The position numbers and the translations under genes are program-made. A DNA stretch of 52,095 bases, from contig CANRFC010000019.1 in the NCBI GenBank assembly GCA_947629795.1, positions 1 through 52,095 of the forward strand, written 5' to 3'. Positions 751 to 6,400 of this stretch are shown here, in pieces; the stretch's first letter is position 1; every line of letters begins with the position of its first letter. This DNA comes from an uncultured Oscillospiraceae bacterium (lineage in GTDB: Bacteria; Bacillota; Clostridia; Oscillospirales; Oscillospiraceae). Under the pieces are notes generated by a model that ran no database searches, had not been told where the DNA came from, and was given only the letters and a program-made list of their open reading frames with translations.

Positions 751-2995
751 ATATCTTCTGAAAGAGAATTCGCTGAAGGTCAAGTGCGGCGACACCAATG
801 TCACCGTGACCAACAACAAGTTCACCATGAATACCGAGGGCACCTACACCGTTACCGCCGAGTTCGTTCAGCCCCTCAAAGAAGCGGAACTCTTCATCGT
901 TAACGATCAGGCTTCCTTCGATAAATTCTGTTCCTTCGGCTATAAGGAGGATCCGCCAAGGACCTATATTCCCGACCTGAAGACCATGCAGTGGCTTGCC
1001 TTAGGCCTTAAGCGGGACGATGCCTACAACACTGACGATGCCGCCAACAAGATCACAAACGGTAAGCTTACCGCCAACGGCGCTGAGGCGAAGTATAAGA
1101 CCGGGTCGGACAACACCCAGAACCCTTGGCCCGGTTCCATGGGCAAGTACAGCGCCCTCTATGTGGACCACAATACCCGCAATGAGGACCCCCAGAGCGA
1201 CCACCTGGACCTGACCGGTTCTTCCTACCACTTTGTCGTCACCTTTGAGTTCAAGGGTGCCAAATACGAGCTGTCCTGCGACTACACCGCGGACGGTGTG
1301 GACGCCAGCAAGCTGGTCACCGTGACCTTCAAGAACGGCTCCGAGACCGTTGCTACCTTCAAGGGCATGCCCAAGGTCGGCGAAACCGGCACCGCCGAGA
1401 AGTTCACCACTCCCGCCGCCCCCACCAAGACCGGCTACACCTTCGGCGGCTGGAAGGCTGGCGATACCACTGTCAACGCCAGCACTGCAACTGATTTCCC
1501 CGCTGCTGCCACTACCTACACGGCCGATTGGACCCCCAACACCTACACTGTGAACTTTGATCTGGATGGCGGCAAGGTCGGTGACAGCGCCTCTACCATC
1601 ACCGCTATCACCGCTACCTATGACCAGGCCATCAGCACCGAAGCCTTGTCCACTCCCACCAAGGACGGCTACACCTTCGGCGGCTGGTTCCTGGACGACA
1701 AGGAAGTTACCAAGGACAGCAAGAACCTGACCGACACCGCCAATGGCACTGTCACCATCAAGGCCAAGTGGACCGCCGTGAAGTACACCATCAAGTACGA
1801 GCTCGACGGCGGCACCGCTCCCGCCACGGCCAATCCCACCGAGTATACTGTGGACACTGATACCCTGACCCTGACCAACGAGCCCACCAAGACGGGTTAT
1901 ACCTTTGCGAAGTGGTGCACCGATGCCGAGTGTAACACCGAATTCACCTACGCCAAGGGCACCACCACCGGCAACCTGACCCTCTACGCCAAGTGGACCC
2001 CCATTCAGTACACTGTCTACTTTGGTGAAGAGAGCGCTAACGTCACCGAGACTTGGACCGTCGAGGGCCAGTTGGTCAACAACGCCCTGGTGCAGAATCC
2101 CGCACCCCTGAAACTGGTAAAACGGGAAAGCATGCAGGATCCCGCCGGATATAAGTATGACTATGATACTATGCCTTGGTCCTACAAAAACGCCGAGGGC
2201 GAAGCTGTGAGCCTGGAAAAAGCCACTGAGATCGCTCTCGCCGACCTGCCCACGTATGCTTATAAAGATGGCAATACCTGGAAGATTAGCCTCTCTCCCT
2301 CTCCGAGAATAGTTGCTACCATCGCCATTCCCTCTGTGGATAAAATCAAAGCCGTCCTCACTGACAATTGGGCGAAGAGCTTAGATGCTGACAAGATGCA
2401 CGTTGATGAGACGCTTACACCCGATGAAAGCCATGAGACCACCCTGAACGCCTCTGGCACCATCACCGCCTACAAGTGGGAGGGGTTTGACCCTGCCCAC
2501 AAGGATGAGAATCGCTGGTACATCGTTTTCACCATCGACAAGCCCACTGGCATGACGCCGGTGACGGGCGATCCCGTTGTTGTTCGTGCCGGCATTGATC
2601 AAGAGGCCCCTGCCTACAACATCAAGCTCAGCCAATTCACCGACGACAGTAACTCGAAGATCTATATCGCTATGCTCGTGGGTGATGTTGCGAGTGATAA
2701 GCAGGCCAAGACGGTCACCATCGTCGTCAACTGGAAGGGCGTCACCGATGGGGAAGAGGATGAGCACTACACCATCGACCTCACCGGCGTGACCTTTGCC
2801 AAGGCCGCCGTGGAGGGCGGCGGCCAGGGCGGCACCGAGCCCACCGACCCCGTGACTACCCCCACTGAAGGCGGCGCGACCACCCCCGATGAGGGTGGGG
2901 ACGAGACCGCTTCCGTCGAGGAAGCCCCCGAGGTAGTCGAGGAGACCCCCGTGGAGGAGGCCCCCGTCGAGACCCCCGCCCCCGAGGAGGAGTAA
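707..2995 (+). CDS. InlB-B-repeat surface protein, probably 5'-truncated
   Basis: Open frame of 762 residues. Three InlB/Listeria-Bacteroides-type beta-grasp repeats are visible at about 203-277, 278-358 and 359-434, each ending in GYTFGGW or GYTFAKW and then a K/D-W-T strand. The tail (about 700-762) is low-complexity and rich in E, P, T and V. The protein ought to be exported, yet no signal peptide is present. There is no ribosome site before the ATG pair at 707/710, and an in-frame TGA lies at 692-694. Native-looking sequence starts only around residue 22 (SLKVKCGD). I infer that the original 5' end was lost at the tnpV-side junction, which would make this a fragment or silent cassette. 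No LPXTG or SLH anchor is visible. Codon use after about 770 matches the host. Confidence 0.75.
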   Translation: MMYLGKAVFLPLYIIYLLKENSLKVKCGDTNVTVTNNKFTMNTEGTYTVTAEFVQPLKEAELFIVNDQASFDKFCSFGYKEDPPRTYIPDLKTMQWLALGLKRDDAYNTDDAANKITNGKLTANGAEAKYKTGSDNTQNPWPGSMGKYSALYVDHNTRNEDPQSDHLDLTGSSYHFVVTFEFKGAKYELSCDYTADGVDASKLVTVTFKNGSETVATFKGMPKVGETGTAEKFTTPAAPTKTGYTFGGWKAGDTTVNASTATDFPAAATTYTADWTPNTYTVNFDLDGGKVGDSASTITAITATYDQAISTEALSTPTKDGYTFGGWFLDDKEVTKDSKNLTDTANGTVTIKAKWTAVKYTIKYELDGGTAPATANPTEYTVDTDTLTLTNEPTKTGYTFAKWCTDAECNTEFTYAKGTTTGNLTLYAKWTPIQYTVYFGEESANVTETWTVEGQLVNNALVQNPAPLKLVKRESMQDPAGYKYDYDTMPWSYKNAEGEAVSLEKATEIALADLPTYAYKDGNTWKISLSPSPRIVATIAIPSVDKIKAVLTDNWAKSLDADKMHVDETLTPDESHETTLNASGTITAYKWEGFDPAHKDENRWYIVFTIDKPTGMTPVTGDPVVVRAGIDQEAPAYNIKLSQFTDDSNSKIYIAMLVGDVASDKQAKTVTIVVNWKGVTDGEEDEHYTIDLTGVTFAKAAVEGGGQGGTEPTDPVTTPTEGGATTPDEGGDETASVEEAPEVVEETPVEEAPVETPAPEEE

Positions 2996-3022
2996 TTCCC
3001 CCGAAAACGAACACCTAAGAAA

Positions 3023-3050
3023 GCCGCCGGGCCCTCGCCCGGCGGCTTTC
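3023..3050 (+). terminator. Terminator of the InlB-repeat gene
   Basis: A 10-bp perfect stem, GCCGCCGGGC / GCCCGGCGGC, with a CCTC loop, followed by TTTCCCTTCC. It starts 27 nt after the stop codon at 2993-2995. Confidence 0.8.
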
Positions 3051-3060
3051 CCTTCCTCTC

Positions 3061-3088
3061 TTGACAAACCCTGTAACTATGCTATAAT
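3061..3088 (+). promoter_or_regulatory. Consensus sigma-A promoter for a short rightward RNA
   Basis: Perfect TTGACA (3061-3066) and perfect TATAAT (3083-3088) with a 16-nt spacer. Nothing with a ribosome site follows; the transcript would start near 3095 and meet a terminator at about 3196. It converges on the small-peptide gene on the other strand. Confidence 0.8.
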
Positions 3089-3094
3089 GAATAC

Positions 3095-3196
3095 AGGAAA
3101 GGCACCGCAAAGCAAGCGGTTCCTGCCCAGAGTAAAGGTTAATCTATGGTATTATGTACCACAAAAACCGTCACCGGCCAGGGTGGCGGTTTTTGC
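3095..3196 (+). ncRNA. Predicted ~100-nt antisense RNA to the small-peptide mRNA
   Basis: Bounded by the consensus promoter at 3061-3088 and by the hairpin with T-run at 3164-3196. It contains a stem-loop at 3100-3124 (AGGCACCGC paired with GCGGTTCCT around an AAAGCAA loop, one mismatch). No start codon with a ribosome site lies inside. Its 3' third is complementary to the last nine or so codons and the terminator of the leftward peptide gene (3171-3260). This 3'-3' overlap through a shared terminator is the arrangement known from type I toxin-antitoxin loci; the antitoxin role is inferred. Confidence 0.5.
3163..3196. terminator. Shared bidirectional terminator
   Basis: AAAACCGTCACC and GGTGGCGGTTTT form a 12-bp stem with one mismatch around a short GGCCAG-type loop. 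It is followed by TTTTTG rightward and, read leftward, also by TTTTTG. It can end both the small-peptide mRNA (leftward) and the antisense RNA (rightward). The stop codon of the peptide gene (3171-3173) is inside the stem. Confidence 0.75.
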
Positions 3197-3260
3197 TATT
3201 ACGACTCAACCGTATGGATACCCGGATGCCCCGGATATGGAACGTCAGCGTAATAGGCAT
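3171..3260 (-). CDS. 29-residue cationic small protein, possible type I toxin-like peptide
   Basis: ATG at 3260, TGA at 3171-3173. The ribosome site is near perfect (AAAGGAGGTG, 5-7 nt before the ATG), much stronger than expected by chance. The peptide begins MPITLTFHIRGIRVSIRL and ends KNRHPGR. It is strongly basic, with alternating hydrophobic residues that suggest an amphipathic strand rather than a membrane helix. It has its own promoter (3359-3387), a roughly 90-nt leader with a CCCCGCC/GGCGGGG stem, and a terminator. A convergent RNA overlaps its 3' end. I do not recognise a family. Membrane or nucleic-acid action is possible from its charge, but this is speculation. Confidence 0.6.
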   Translation of the reverse strand: MPITLTFHIRGIRVSIRLSRNSKNRHPGR

Positions 3261-3358
3261 GGTCTCACCTCCTTTCAGAGGTGTGGCCGGAACCGCCTGC
3301 CGTACTTGCTGCAGTGCCTTGGCCCCGCCTATCCCATTTCAGCGGCGGGGTTAAAATT

Positions 3359-3387
3359 ACATTACAACAAATTCGAACAAATGTCAA
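3359..3387 (-). promoter_or_regulatory. Promoter of the small-peptide gene
   Basis: Read leftward: perfect TTGACA (3387-3382), a 17-nt spacer, then TAATGT (3364-3359), which keeps the key T, A and final T of a -10 box. It starts immediately after the terminator of the M14 peptidase gene, so the peptide gene is an independent unit. Confidence 0.6.
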
Positions 3388-3388
3388 C

Positions 3389-3415
3389 AAAAACCGCCGC
3401 CCTTCCGGGCGGCGG
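3389..3415 (-). terminator. Terminator of the M14 peptidase gene
   Basis: Leftward: CCGCCGCCC / GGGCGGCGG stem (9 bp) with a GGAA loop, then TTTTT. It lies about 25 nt past the stop codon. Confidence 0.8.
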
Positions 3416-3438
3416 CCTTGTTCTTGCTCGGTCCTCTT

Positions 3439-6400
3439 TTACAGGGCGGCCACCCGCAGCAGGATGGTGGCCAGCTGGGCCCGGGTCAGGATGTCGCCGG
3501 GCTTCATCGCCCCCGTTTCATCCCCGATGAGGATGCCCGCGTCATAGCAGAATGTCACGGCTCCCAAGGCTTCTCCGGGAATGTCCCCCTTGTCCGGGAC
3601 CTGGTCGATCTTCCCGGTGGCCTGGGCGGTGAGCCCCTTGCCCTGGCAGTAGGCCGCCACGATCTGGGCGGTGGCGGCCCGGTCGATGGCCCCGTTGGGG
3701 GCGAAGTTCCCGTCCACCGTGACCAGCCCGGCCTGGCTGGCCCAGTTGACCGCGTCGGTGTACCAGGCGTCGGCGGGGTAGGCGCCGGCGGTGACCTCCG
3801 GCTTGCCCTCCGGCTTGCCCTCCATGTTGTAGAGAGCCTGACAAACTGTGGCCAGGGTGATATCCGCCTCCGGCCTGAACTGCCCGTTCCCGGTGCCCAC
3901 CATGATGCCGGCGGTGACCGCCTGATCCACCGTGGCGGCGTACCAGGCGTTCTCCGGCACGTCCTTGAAGCTCTGGGCCACGGCGGTGAAGGCGGCGTTG
4001 GCGATGAAGCCGAACTCGTCCCGCTGGTGCATCTTGTTGGTCAGGGTGTTGGCGAAGAGGACCACGTCCATGCCGTCCTTCTTGTAGGAGATGGCCTGGA
4101 TGGAGTCGTTGAGGAAGTCCTCGTAGTGCTCCCCGGTCTTGGGCAGGAAGCCCTCCAGCAGCTCCTTGGAGCCGTCCAGCTTCACCAGGACCTGGGCGCC
4201 CTCAGGGATGGCGGCGAAGTACCCCGCGCCGTAGCCGTACAGGATGTCGTCCCCCTCGGCCACATAGCTGGCGGTGATGGGGCTCTTGGTGGGATAGGTC
4301 ACGTAGGCCAGGGCGTCCAGGGCCTGGTCGGCGGCGGCCTGCCACACCAGCTCACCCTCGCCGAAGAGCTTCATGGCCCCGTCCATGGCCTCGGGGCCGT
4401 AGCCGATGTAGGCCGTGCCCGCCTTCACGGCGGCCAGAGCGGCGTCGTCCAGGCTCACCGCACCGAGGATGAGGTCGGCCTCAGAGACGTTTTCGGTGGT
4501 CTGGAAGCCCATGAGCTCCATGGACTGCCGGTCATAGTTGTAGGAGGTGTTGTTCCAGTTGATGAGGGAGGAATGGACGAAGCCCTGCTCATTGTCGGGG
4601 GTCTTGCCCGCGATGTAGATGACGGGGGCCTTGGTCAGGGCCTTGGCGGCGGGAGCCAGGCCCTCCACCGCCGCGGCGGTGAGGAGGTGGTCCTTGGAAA
4701 CGCTCTCGTAGTCGGCCTTGGAGACCAGGAAGGAGCCCGCGTAGTCTCCGGCGGTGATGACGCTAACCTTCTTCCCCGCCCCGAGCAGCTCGTTGACTGA
4801 GATAATGGCGTCCTCAGAGGTGTTGCAGAGGATGACCTGGTCGCTGTCCACCTTATCGGAGGTCACAGTCCAGGCGTCCTTCTCGGTGCAGACAGCGGCG
4901 ATGGTCTTGTAGCTCTCGGGCTCGGCGCACACGGTCATGTCGAAGCCCCGGGTCTTGTTGAAGGCGGTGATGCCCTCGGAGTAGAGCACGGGCCAGCCGG
5001 TGATGACGGTGCCGTCATAGAGCACGCCGTTGGCCACGCTCCGCTTGGCCTGGTACATGGACACCACGGCAGTGCCGGCGGGGTACTCCGTGCCGTTATA
5101 GGTGAAGGCCTGGTCGGCGAAGAGCACCTTCACACCGTTGCGCTTGAGGTAGGTCAGCATCTGGTCGGCGGCGTCCAGGTTCTTCTGGTTGGCGCTGTCC
5201 AGGGGGATGATGTAGCACTCGGGGTAGAAGTTGCCGTTCTGTCCCTCGCCGTCGTACTCGGGCCGGAACACGTCCATCTCCGCGCCCTCCACGTCGTACT
5301 GGTCGCAGAACCACTGACCCACCAGGTCATAGGCGTCGGAGTTGGCGTTGGTGACCCCCCGCTCAAAGATCTTGGCCTGGGCCAGGAGGTAGCCGGCCTT
5401 GTTCTCGGCGATGTAGTGGGACTGGCCCAGCTGGCCGTAGGCGATGGCGGTGGCGGTCTGGTCGTTGTAGGCGGGCTGCTCCACCGTGTAGGCTACGGTG
5501 CCGTGGAGCATGGAGTACTGGGGGGTGTAGCTGGTGGACATATCGTCCCAGGGGTCGAACCACTGGGTCTGATCCTTGCCATCGGCGGTCTTCTGGCCAT
5601 TGTAGCTCAGGTAGTCCCGCTGGGGGATGACGTAGCTGTTGTAGCTGTCGTTGTTGGCCACCGCCGCGATGCCGAAGGCCTCACCGCCGCTGACCAGGTG
5701 CTCGGAGAGCAGGTCGTACTCAAAATTGGGCTCGTGGGGGGGATCGCAGGGCTCGCACTGGAAGGCGCTCACCCGGCCGTGGAACTCGGTGAAGCTCACG
5801 GGGTTCCAGGAGGCGATGAGGTGGGTCATGTTCTGGGTCTCCGCCTGGGTCTGGAAGGAGTTGTCCCGGTTCAGGTCCACGCCCCCGGAGGACTCCCGGG
5901 TCAGGTAGGTCCGGCCCTCGGCGTTCTCGGCGGGGACAATGAGGAAGAACACGTCGTCCAGCAGGGCGTCGGTGTCCACGGTGACGGTCTCGCTGGTGTA
6001 GAACTTATCCAGGTCCACCACGCCGGAGGCACTGGAGCCCTCGGGCTTGATGTAGCCCAGGTAGGTGGCGGTGTCCTTCACCAGGTCGGGGACGGCCACG
6101 CTGCCCTCCTCCCCCGCGGGGCCCATCTGCTTGGCCAGCTCGGCCTCGCCGGCGGCGGTGAAGCCGGTGAGGTTCTTGTAGTCGATCTTGCCATTGCCGG
6201 CGGCGGTCTCCAGCAGCAGGGCGGCGAACTTCAGGATGCCGTCGGTGGCGGAGACCTCGTTGGTGTGGACGTTGGAGTAGAGGATGGGCACCTGGTAGTC
6301 CTTCAGGGCGCCGCTCTCCAGCTTCTCGATGACAGAGGCGGGGTCGGACTCGGCCTGGGCCTTCAGCTTCTGCCAGTTGTCCACCGCCGCCTTGCTCTTG

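Follow-up and report, generated by a model that had tools for sequence, protein, structure and literature searches.

A recurrent cassette of a small-peptide gene and a convergent RNA with a shared terminator in Oscillospiraceae, possibly working like a toxin-antitoxin unit

The window, as the whole stretch of DNA analysed is called here, comprises 52,095 nucleotides of contig CANRFC010000019.1 of an uncultured Oscillospiraceae bacterium (GCA_947629795.1). Positions 3061–3387 carry a leftward gene for a 29-codon peptide and a convergent RNA of about 100 nt (RNA2), with one terminator common to both. The cassette is located between the genes of a Listeria-Bacteroides-repeat protein and an SLH-domain protein, each of which, as judged by eye, has a terminator of its own. 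The RNA2 promoter, TTGACA-N16-TATAAT (3061..3088, plus strand), matches the consensus at 12 of 12 positions and is the sole promoter-like site in the region 2400–4200, where 0.2 sites are expected in shuffled sequences. RNA2 itself is predicted at about 3095..3197 (plus strand), with its ends derived from the promoter and the terminator; a covariance model of RNA2 matches 3094–3198 with an E-value of 2.1e-11, the window itself being among the training sequences. The peptide promoter, TTGACA-N17-TAATGT (3359..3387, minus strand), combines a perfect −35 box (3387–3382) with a poor −10 box (3364–3359) that agrees with the consensus at 3 of 6 positions. The two perfect TTGACA boxes facing each other, described in the earlier note, are indeed found at 3061 (plus) and 3387–3382 (minus); as a promoter, the rightward one stands in full and the leftward one is weaker in its −10 box than had been implied.

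The peptide gene (29 codons and TGA, 3171..3260, minus strand) encodes MPITLTFHIRGIRVSIRLSRNSKNRHPGR and is preceded by a near-perfect Shine-Dalgarno (SD) sequence, AAAGGAGGTG (3275–3266, minus strand), both as the earlier note had read them. The bidirectional intrinsic terminator (3163..3194, both strands), also recognised there as a single hairpin ending both units, encodes the last codons of the peptide and the stop codon TGA (3173–3171), so that the reading frame ends inside the hairpin; a T-tract follows the hairpin on either strand, as seen by eye. The overlap of RNA2 and the mRNA amounts to nine peptide codons, the number given previously, when the stop codon is counted and the derived ends of RNA2 are used. 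Of the two units, RNA2 has the promoter closer to consensus, and both RNAs are predicted to end on the same terminator.

Three parts of the cassette go beyond the earlier note. The SD sequence lies within a computed hairpin, CACCUCU-GAA-AGGAGGUG (3266..3283, minus strand), which would hide it. Upstream of this hairpin, the mRNA contains an element designated E (3285..3318, minus strand), delineated by sequence match and by co-variation in relatives, which has the same sense as the 5′ hairpin of RNA2, GGCACCGC...GCGGUUCCUGCC (3101..3127, plus strand), itself delineated by pair counts and by the same-sense match to the mRNA element. Further upstream, a 5′ helix of the peptide mRNA, CCCCGCC...GGCGGGG (3323..3350, minus strand), was drawn by eye, and the fold of the whole mRNA pairs this region partly otherwise.

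The same genome contains another cassette laid out in this way (paralogue C7, MPIVITFHIFGRTVTIRIR), and its peptide terminates before the usual tail. Altogether, 70 distinct peptide loci were dissected, with promoters scored as consensus matches, a few of which may be misplaced. A score of at least 9 of 12 was reached by the RNA2 promoter in 68 of the 70 loci and by the mRNA promoter in 54; the best RNA2 promoter scored 12 in 45 loci and 11 in 18, and the best mRNA promoter scored 10–11 in 48. Both promoters were assigned by rule in 48 of the 70 loci, where the −10 boxes are 211–256 nt apart. The stop codon has the context GTGACG in 63 of the 70. The search for conservation of the peptide together with its flanking promoters, which the earlier note had put forward as a check, thus found the reading frame, the convergent promoter and the shared terminator conserved together. 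Terminators and other single elements occur widely, which would suit a chance arrangement or an artefact of a GC-rich intergenic region; the whole layout recurs, however, and the peptide is under purifying selection (see below), which makes this explanation hardly credible. The second copy in the same genome and the recurrence in 70 loci place the cassette layout beyond chance.

The distribution of the cassette is patchy. When the single peptide was searched for with an E limit of 0.1, 8 of 99 genomes matched, including the genome of origin and one match, L017, that looks spurious; within the genus, 3 of 16 genomes matched. Of the 394 genomes covered from the order, 25 were matched by a profile of 11 peptides at E 0.01, again including the genome of origin, with several places weak or interrupted by stop codons. 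Named genome contigs account for 49 loci; 27 of these belong to contigs titled Oscillospiraceae or Ruminococcaceae and two to Faecalibacterium prausnitzii. The covariance model of RNA2 gave matches at E 0.01 in 56 of 150 genomes of the family, with a best E-value of 1e-7 or lower in 31 of them, and up to 14 matches per genome; these E-values are rough, some matches represent the opposite strand of the same place, and weak ones may be other terminators. By rule, 21 of 36 loci found with this model bear a peptide, and a second subfamily (MRITLHIGxFTVTIVVK and variants) makes up 10 of the 21; the remaining 15 are L105 (the early-stop paralogue), L106–L110 from the same genome as the window, and nine others. 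At a larger scale, a 30-member profile matched 2 of 341 genomes of the class (the genome of origin and one weak match) and 5 of 348 genomes of the phylum, namely the genome of origin, three of one genus and one further genome. Four of these five lie outside the class, and one of the three genomes that share a genus has 9 matches. In the loci L146, L148, L153 and L155 from outside the class, the peptide and the downstream part are kept and the upstream leader has apparently been replaced, as judged by eye.

The core of the peptide reads MPITLTFHIxGxTVTIxVK, and the peptide is 27 residues long in 57 of the 70 loci. Over 68 distinct cores, the mean entropies of the first, second and third codon positions are 0.65, 0.33 and 1.34 bits, and codons 14, 16 and 18 each have an invariant second position. 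For the core codons, pS is 0.65 and pN 0.20, against 0.31 and 0.34 in the frame+1 control; dN/dS is about 0.26 in 833 close pairs. The peptide reading frame is under purifying selection; the lack of frame conservation that the earlier note had named as decisive against its reading was looked for and not found. Part of the peptide conservation and of the β pattern described below is built in by the search patterns: the loci in named contigs were retrieved by a pattern on residues 2–11, a further regular expression demanded P at residue 2, H at residue 8 and a hydrophobic-polar-hydrophobic run near residues 14–16, and the MRITLHIG subfamily was found through the RNA model, which includes the terminator that encodes the tail. 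This tail, NRHSAK or NRHPGR, is the translation of the terminator, and the peptides of L010, L055 and L084 end before it; for these reasons, the tail is probably not the part selected as protein.

Hydrophobic and polar residues alternate on either side of a central turn. For 64 peptides, the β moment is 0.67 versus 0.29 in shuffled sequences, the α moment is 0.22 versus 0.30, and the mean net charge is +4.1. The hydrophobicity is low (mean GRAVY 0.01, and −0.61 for the peptide of the window). The peptide is probably a β-hairpin. This agrees with the previous description of an amphipathic, cationic peptide that is no membrane helix, the amphipathicity being of the β and not the α type. The suggestion that it may represent a new class also holds as far as the computation goes: no convincing family match was obtained in Pfam, NCBIfam, PHROGs or PDB (best Pfam E-value 0.02), no paper containing the peptide words was found in the literature texts searched, and Rfam gave no match in the window at the gathering threshold and, in 8 loci at E up to 1, two sub-gathering matches judged to be due to chance.

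The cationic and weakly hydrophobic character of the peptide would suit a non-toxic small protein under antisense regulation, in which case the cassette would set the dose of a house-keeping or signalling peptide. In line with this, some copies are intergenic on chromosome-like replicons, for example next to the polyribonucleotide nucleotidyltransferase gene in Vescimonas. The patchiness (8 of 99 genomes), the presence of up to 14 RNA2-model matches per genome, the tandem copies and the carriage on viral contigs are better explained by a selfish or defence-type element, and the non-toxin explanation is considered rather unlikely.

As for the carriers, IMG/VR contigs contributed 23 loci (5 plus 18). 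L179 and L181 were dissected from the 18-contig set, in which L187 is a partial match; L071–L073 are near-identical. PHROGs comparisons were run on ten open reading frames from 6 of the 23 loci. In L179, the whole cassette (1866–2220) is flanked by tail-protein genes, one of which encodes an XkdN-like product, and this placement suggests moron-like cargo; in L181, the cassette (about 1890–2180) lies downstream of the genes of a major tail protein and of a product of unknown function. Two more terminator-like copies, possibly remnants, were seen by eye after the L181 cassette (2190–2270). The cassette adjoins a holin gene in L177, so that in L181 and L177, too, its position next to tail or lysis genes resembles that of a moron; in L071 it adjoins an anti-repressor gene, and the open reading frames neighbouring L182 and L074 had no named function in PHROGs. 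Annotated phage records gave one match, an unverified unannotated scaffold, further matches being weak. One plasmid record matched in four places, and the best of these adjoins pnp and a helix-turn-helix (HTH) gene, with no gene listed beneath it in a gene table that is incomplete. Tandem pairs occur at L021, L029 and L068, and some genomes carry several copies. Mobility of the cassette between genomes may be inferred from the patchy distribution, the copy number and the viral contigs. No empty insertion site was found when one was sought in the genus.

The RNA structures were compared using 65 RNA2s that passed the promoter and terminator rules and 50 mRNAs that passed the promoter and length rules, 46 of the 70 loci passing both; the alignments contained 61 RNA2s (L012, L019, L071 and L074 being left out) and 49 leaders. 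In the terminator of the 61 RNA2s, 7 of 13 pairs show two-sided changes, and 0 of 500 shuffles reach the observed values. One terminator pair is U-G in 60 of the 61 RNA2s; in the mRNA, where the stop TGA falls on this position, it becomes a C-A mismatch. In computed folds, 64 of 67 leaders have a paired SD core, versus 324 of 670 shuffled controls. An extra hairpin 5′ of E is found in 29 of 46 mRNAs and in 0 of 46 RNA2s, so it is not universal; in L066, L067 and L069, which are counted among the 29, part of E was taken as leader. Some leaders depart from this scheme by eye: in L028 and L038, an insertion of about 100 nt with a terminator-like end splits E between the promoter and the peptide, and L056 contains another insertion.

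In the E hairpin of RNA2, all 5 outer pairs show two-sided changes and 71.5% of the outer cells are paired (61 RNA2s), with 0 of 500 shuffles reaching the observed values; the pair counts for E, in RNA2 and mRNA alike, depend on the structures named by the analyst. The hairpin was not predicted by RNAalifold. The mRNA version of E is weakly supported by shuffles: values as high arose in 28 of 500 when paired cells were counted and in 319 of 500 when two-sided changes were, or in 3 and 85 of 500 with an alternative inner stem.

The relationship between the two copies of E is locus-specific. In 46 loci, the same-sense similarity of the leader to its own RNA2 is 28.4, versus 18.9 to the other RNA2s (0 of 20,000 permutations), and the own RNA2 is the best same-sense partner in 27 of the 46. 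Loci were also paired by peptide similarity, which lessens the effect of shared ancestry: 22 disjoint pairs gave 16 concordant, 0 discordant and 6 tied cases, and all pairs gave 628 concordant, 30 discordant and 30 tied cases at a peptide identity of at least 0.6, and 127, 9 and 24 at one of at least 0.8. The second subfamily behaves similarly (31.4 versus 20.6, 0 of 20,000, own best in 9; n = 12), as do the loci outside the class (24.3 versus 18.6, 12 of 20,000, own best in 4; n = 10), with two near-identical tandem pairs (L118 and L137) and loci with replaced leaders included in these comparisons. In the window, the similarity is 33, whereas none of the 64 other RNA2s exceeds 27; when the start of RNA2 was shuffled, 1 of 2,000 versions reached 33. 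By these comparisons, the two RNAs share a co-evolving E hairpin at their starts.

The two copies of E in the window are inverted repeats in the DNA, which is why they have the same sense in the RNAs; their arms are separated by 157 and 200 nt. Such an arrangement would permit gene conversion between the repeats, of which the shared E could be a functionless product. The mRNA and RNA2 versions keep their differences, however, for example in that many mRNAs have an extra GGCA or GGTA ahead of GCGG, as seen by eye, and the RNA2 stems contain compensatory changes; this origin of the similarity is quite improbable. Another explanation takes E for a DNA operator at which one repressor acts on both promoters. 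E closely follows each of the two −10 boxes and shows dyad symmetry, and HTH-like genes were found within about 1 kb of 8 of 71 loci, including L010 (the paralogue in the genome of origin) and L140 (Vescimonas). Pairs of the inner stem are often T-G (26 of 61 and 49 of 61), which is compatible with an RNA stem but breaks dyad symmetry in the DNA. Moreover, phmmer searches with three HTH proteins from the loci themselves, which would miss other HTH types, found no HTH-like neighbour in 63 of 71 loci (59 of the 71 having full flanks), and for this reason the operator explanation is regarded as very improbable.

Antisense contact between the RNAs was also evaluated. The duplex energy is −26.4 for own and −26.1 for mixed pairs in the 46 loci (4,617 of 20,000 permutations), that is, no difference was observed, and no excess of antisense complementarity outside the terminator was found in own versus mixed mRNA–RNA2 pairs. 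Since complementarity elsewhere is not above that of mixed pairs, the terminator of about 30 nt is the only assured antisense contact. Targeting of the SD by RNA2 as a general feature was rejected for the family as a whole (own 6.8 versus 7.0 nt for others, 4,888 of 5,000). As a separate observation, the 5′ region of L071 RNA2 contains a AACCUCCUUUC-like stretch complementary to the SD over 10 contiguous pairs, and similar stretches were seen by eye in the RNA2s of L074, L081 and L143; in these four loci, a variant blocking the SD directly is possible.

The same-sense similarity together with the null result for duplex energy raises the alternative that RNA2, instead of or besides acting as antisense, mimics the mRNA leader, its E copy titrating a shared ligand such as an RNA-binding protein, an RNase or the peptide itself. 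The concordance of the disjoint pairs, with none discordant, and its repetition in the second subfamily and outside the class are in agreement with such mimicry, as are the bulge strings, which the named structure leaves unpaired: 14 of 48 own pairs have identical ones, versus 2.4 expected by permutation (0 of 5,000). The ligand is hypothetical, though, and the bulge strings differ in 34 of the 48. Identity of the stems would equally be demanded by an exchange of arms between the hairpins, which the slightly better cross-pairing of own arms fits (0.77 versus 0.71 in mixed pairs, 0 of 2,000). Mimicry is a tentative alternative, on the unlikely side.

The cassette is best explained as a self-contained unit of a new family that may work like a toxin-antitoxin unit of the par/Fst type (type I), an interpretation considered fairly probable; "toxin-antitoxin" is used here as an analogy and the peptide as a candidate toxin. 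RNA2 would be in excess over the peptide mRNA and would meet it through the complementary terminator stem-loops, after which the mRNA would stay untranslated, be cut by RNase III, or both. When RNA2 drops owing to loss of the element, stress or shut-off of its promoter, the presumably more stable mRNA would be translated, and the peptide would then act, most likely on the membrane, as a β-hairpin or an oligomer of it. E could serve both RNAs either by binding one common factor or, the sequence being shared, by arm exchange, in which the 5′ arm of one RNA pairs with the 3′ arm of the other. Several features count against the toxin-antitoxin-like interpretation, namely the poor −10 box of the mRNA promoter in the window, the paralogue peptide without the usual tail, the low hydrophobicity of the peptides, the complementarity of own pairs that outside the terminator does not exceed that of mixed ones, the weak shuffle support for the mRNA version of E, and some copies that are flanked by chromosomal genes and show no sign of a mobile element. 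A more specific proposal, put forward tentatively and thought rather doubtful, is that RNA2 recognises or controls the mRNA through the co-evolving hairpin copy, by mimicry or arm exchange, and that the product is a β-hairpin peptide unlike the helical membrane toxins of the type I reviews consulted. RNA2 may follow a different recognition principle.

If the toxin-antitoxin-like interpretation is true, the cassettes would constitute a widespread family among gut Clostridia that are themselves abundant, and its peptide would stand apart from the helical toxins typical of such units; the literature search by peptide words found no description of such a family. The locus-specific, same-sense E also raises the question of how a convergent RNA finds its own mRNA among many similar copies.

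In Bacillus subtilis, the antisense RNA and the small-peptide mRNA of the txpA/RatA, bsrG/SR4 and bsrE/SR5 loci are convergent and overlap at their 3′ ends. The cassette resembles these loci in its convergent RNAs with a 3′ overlap and differs from them in that its RNAs overlap within the terminator alone. When 29 members were compared with Pfam and NCBIfam (E up to 1) and PHROGs (E up to 0.1), collections that we take to contain Fst/Ldr models, no match to an Fst or Ldr family appeared; by these searches, the cassette peptide is outside the Fst/Ldr superfamily. The YrzI family (TIGR02413/PF09501) was also considered: residues 6–22 of one member resemble profile positions 2–18 with 16.2 bits and an E-value of 0.0089, far below the curated cut-off of 47.05 bits. 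At E up to 1, 2 of the 29 members matched the NCBIfam profile of the family and 3 matched the Pfam one, which is near chance given the number of tests, and a PF09501 search of the genome of origin gave one match, below the cut-off (E 6.87) and elsewhere in the genome. The YrzI lead, followed into PMC10100781, PMC3871023, PMC10632193 and PMC11780869, was dropped.

The type I toxins of Clostridioides difficile and B. subtilis compared in PMC6563280 are described there as having a transmembrane domain, and, according to PMC8309996, most membrane type I toxins are α-helical, RalR and SymE being cytosolic. The par/Fst locus, as described in PMC7472228, has convergent promoters, a shared terminator, a 5′ helix on the toxin mRNA, an SD sequence in a 5′ stem-loop and a toxin, Fst, of 33 residues. 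The cassette departs from it in having a same-sense hairpin where par, in that description, has complementary direct repeats, in an RNA2 of about 100 nt versus an RNA II of about 40 nt, and in a β-amphipathic peptide with no family match. The layout of the cassette otherwise agrees with that account, as the earlier note had proposed: the convergent promoters (68 and 54 of the 70 loci), the shared bidirectional intrinsic terminator, the sequestration of the SD in a 5′ stem-loop in computed folds, the 5′ helix on the toxin-equivalent mRNA (29 of 46) and a peptide of about 30 residues are common to both.
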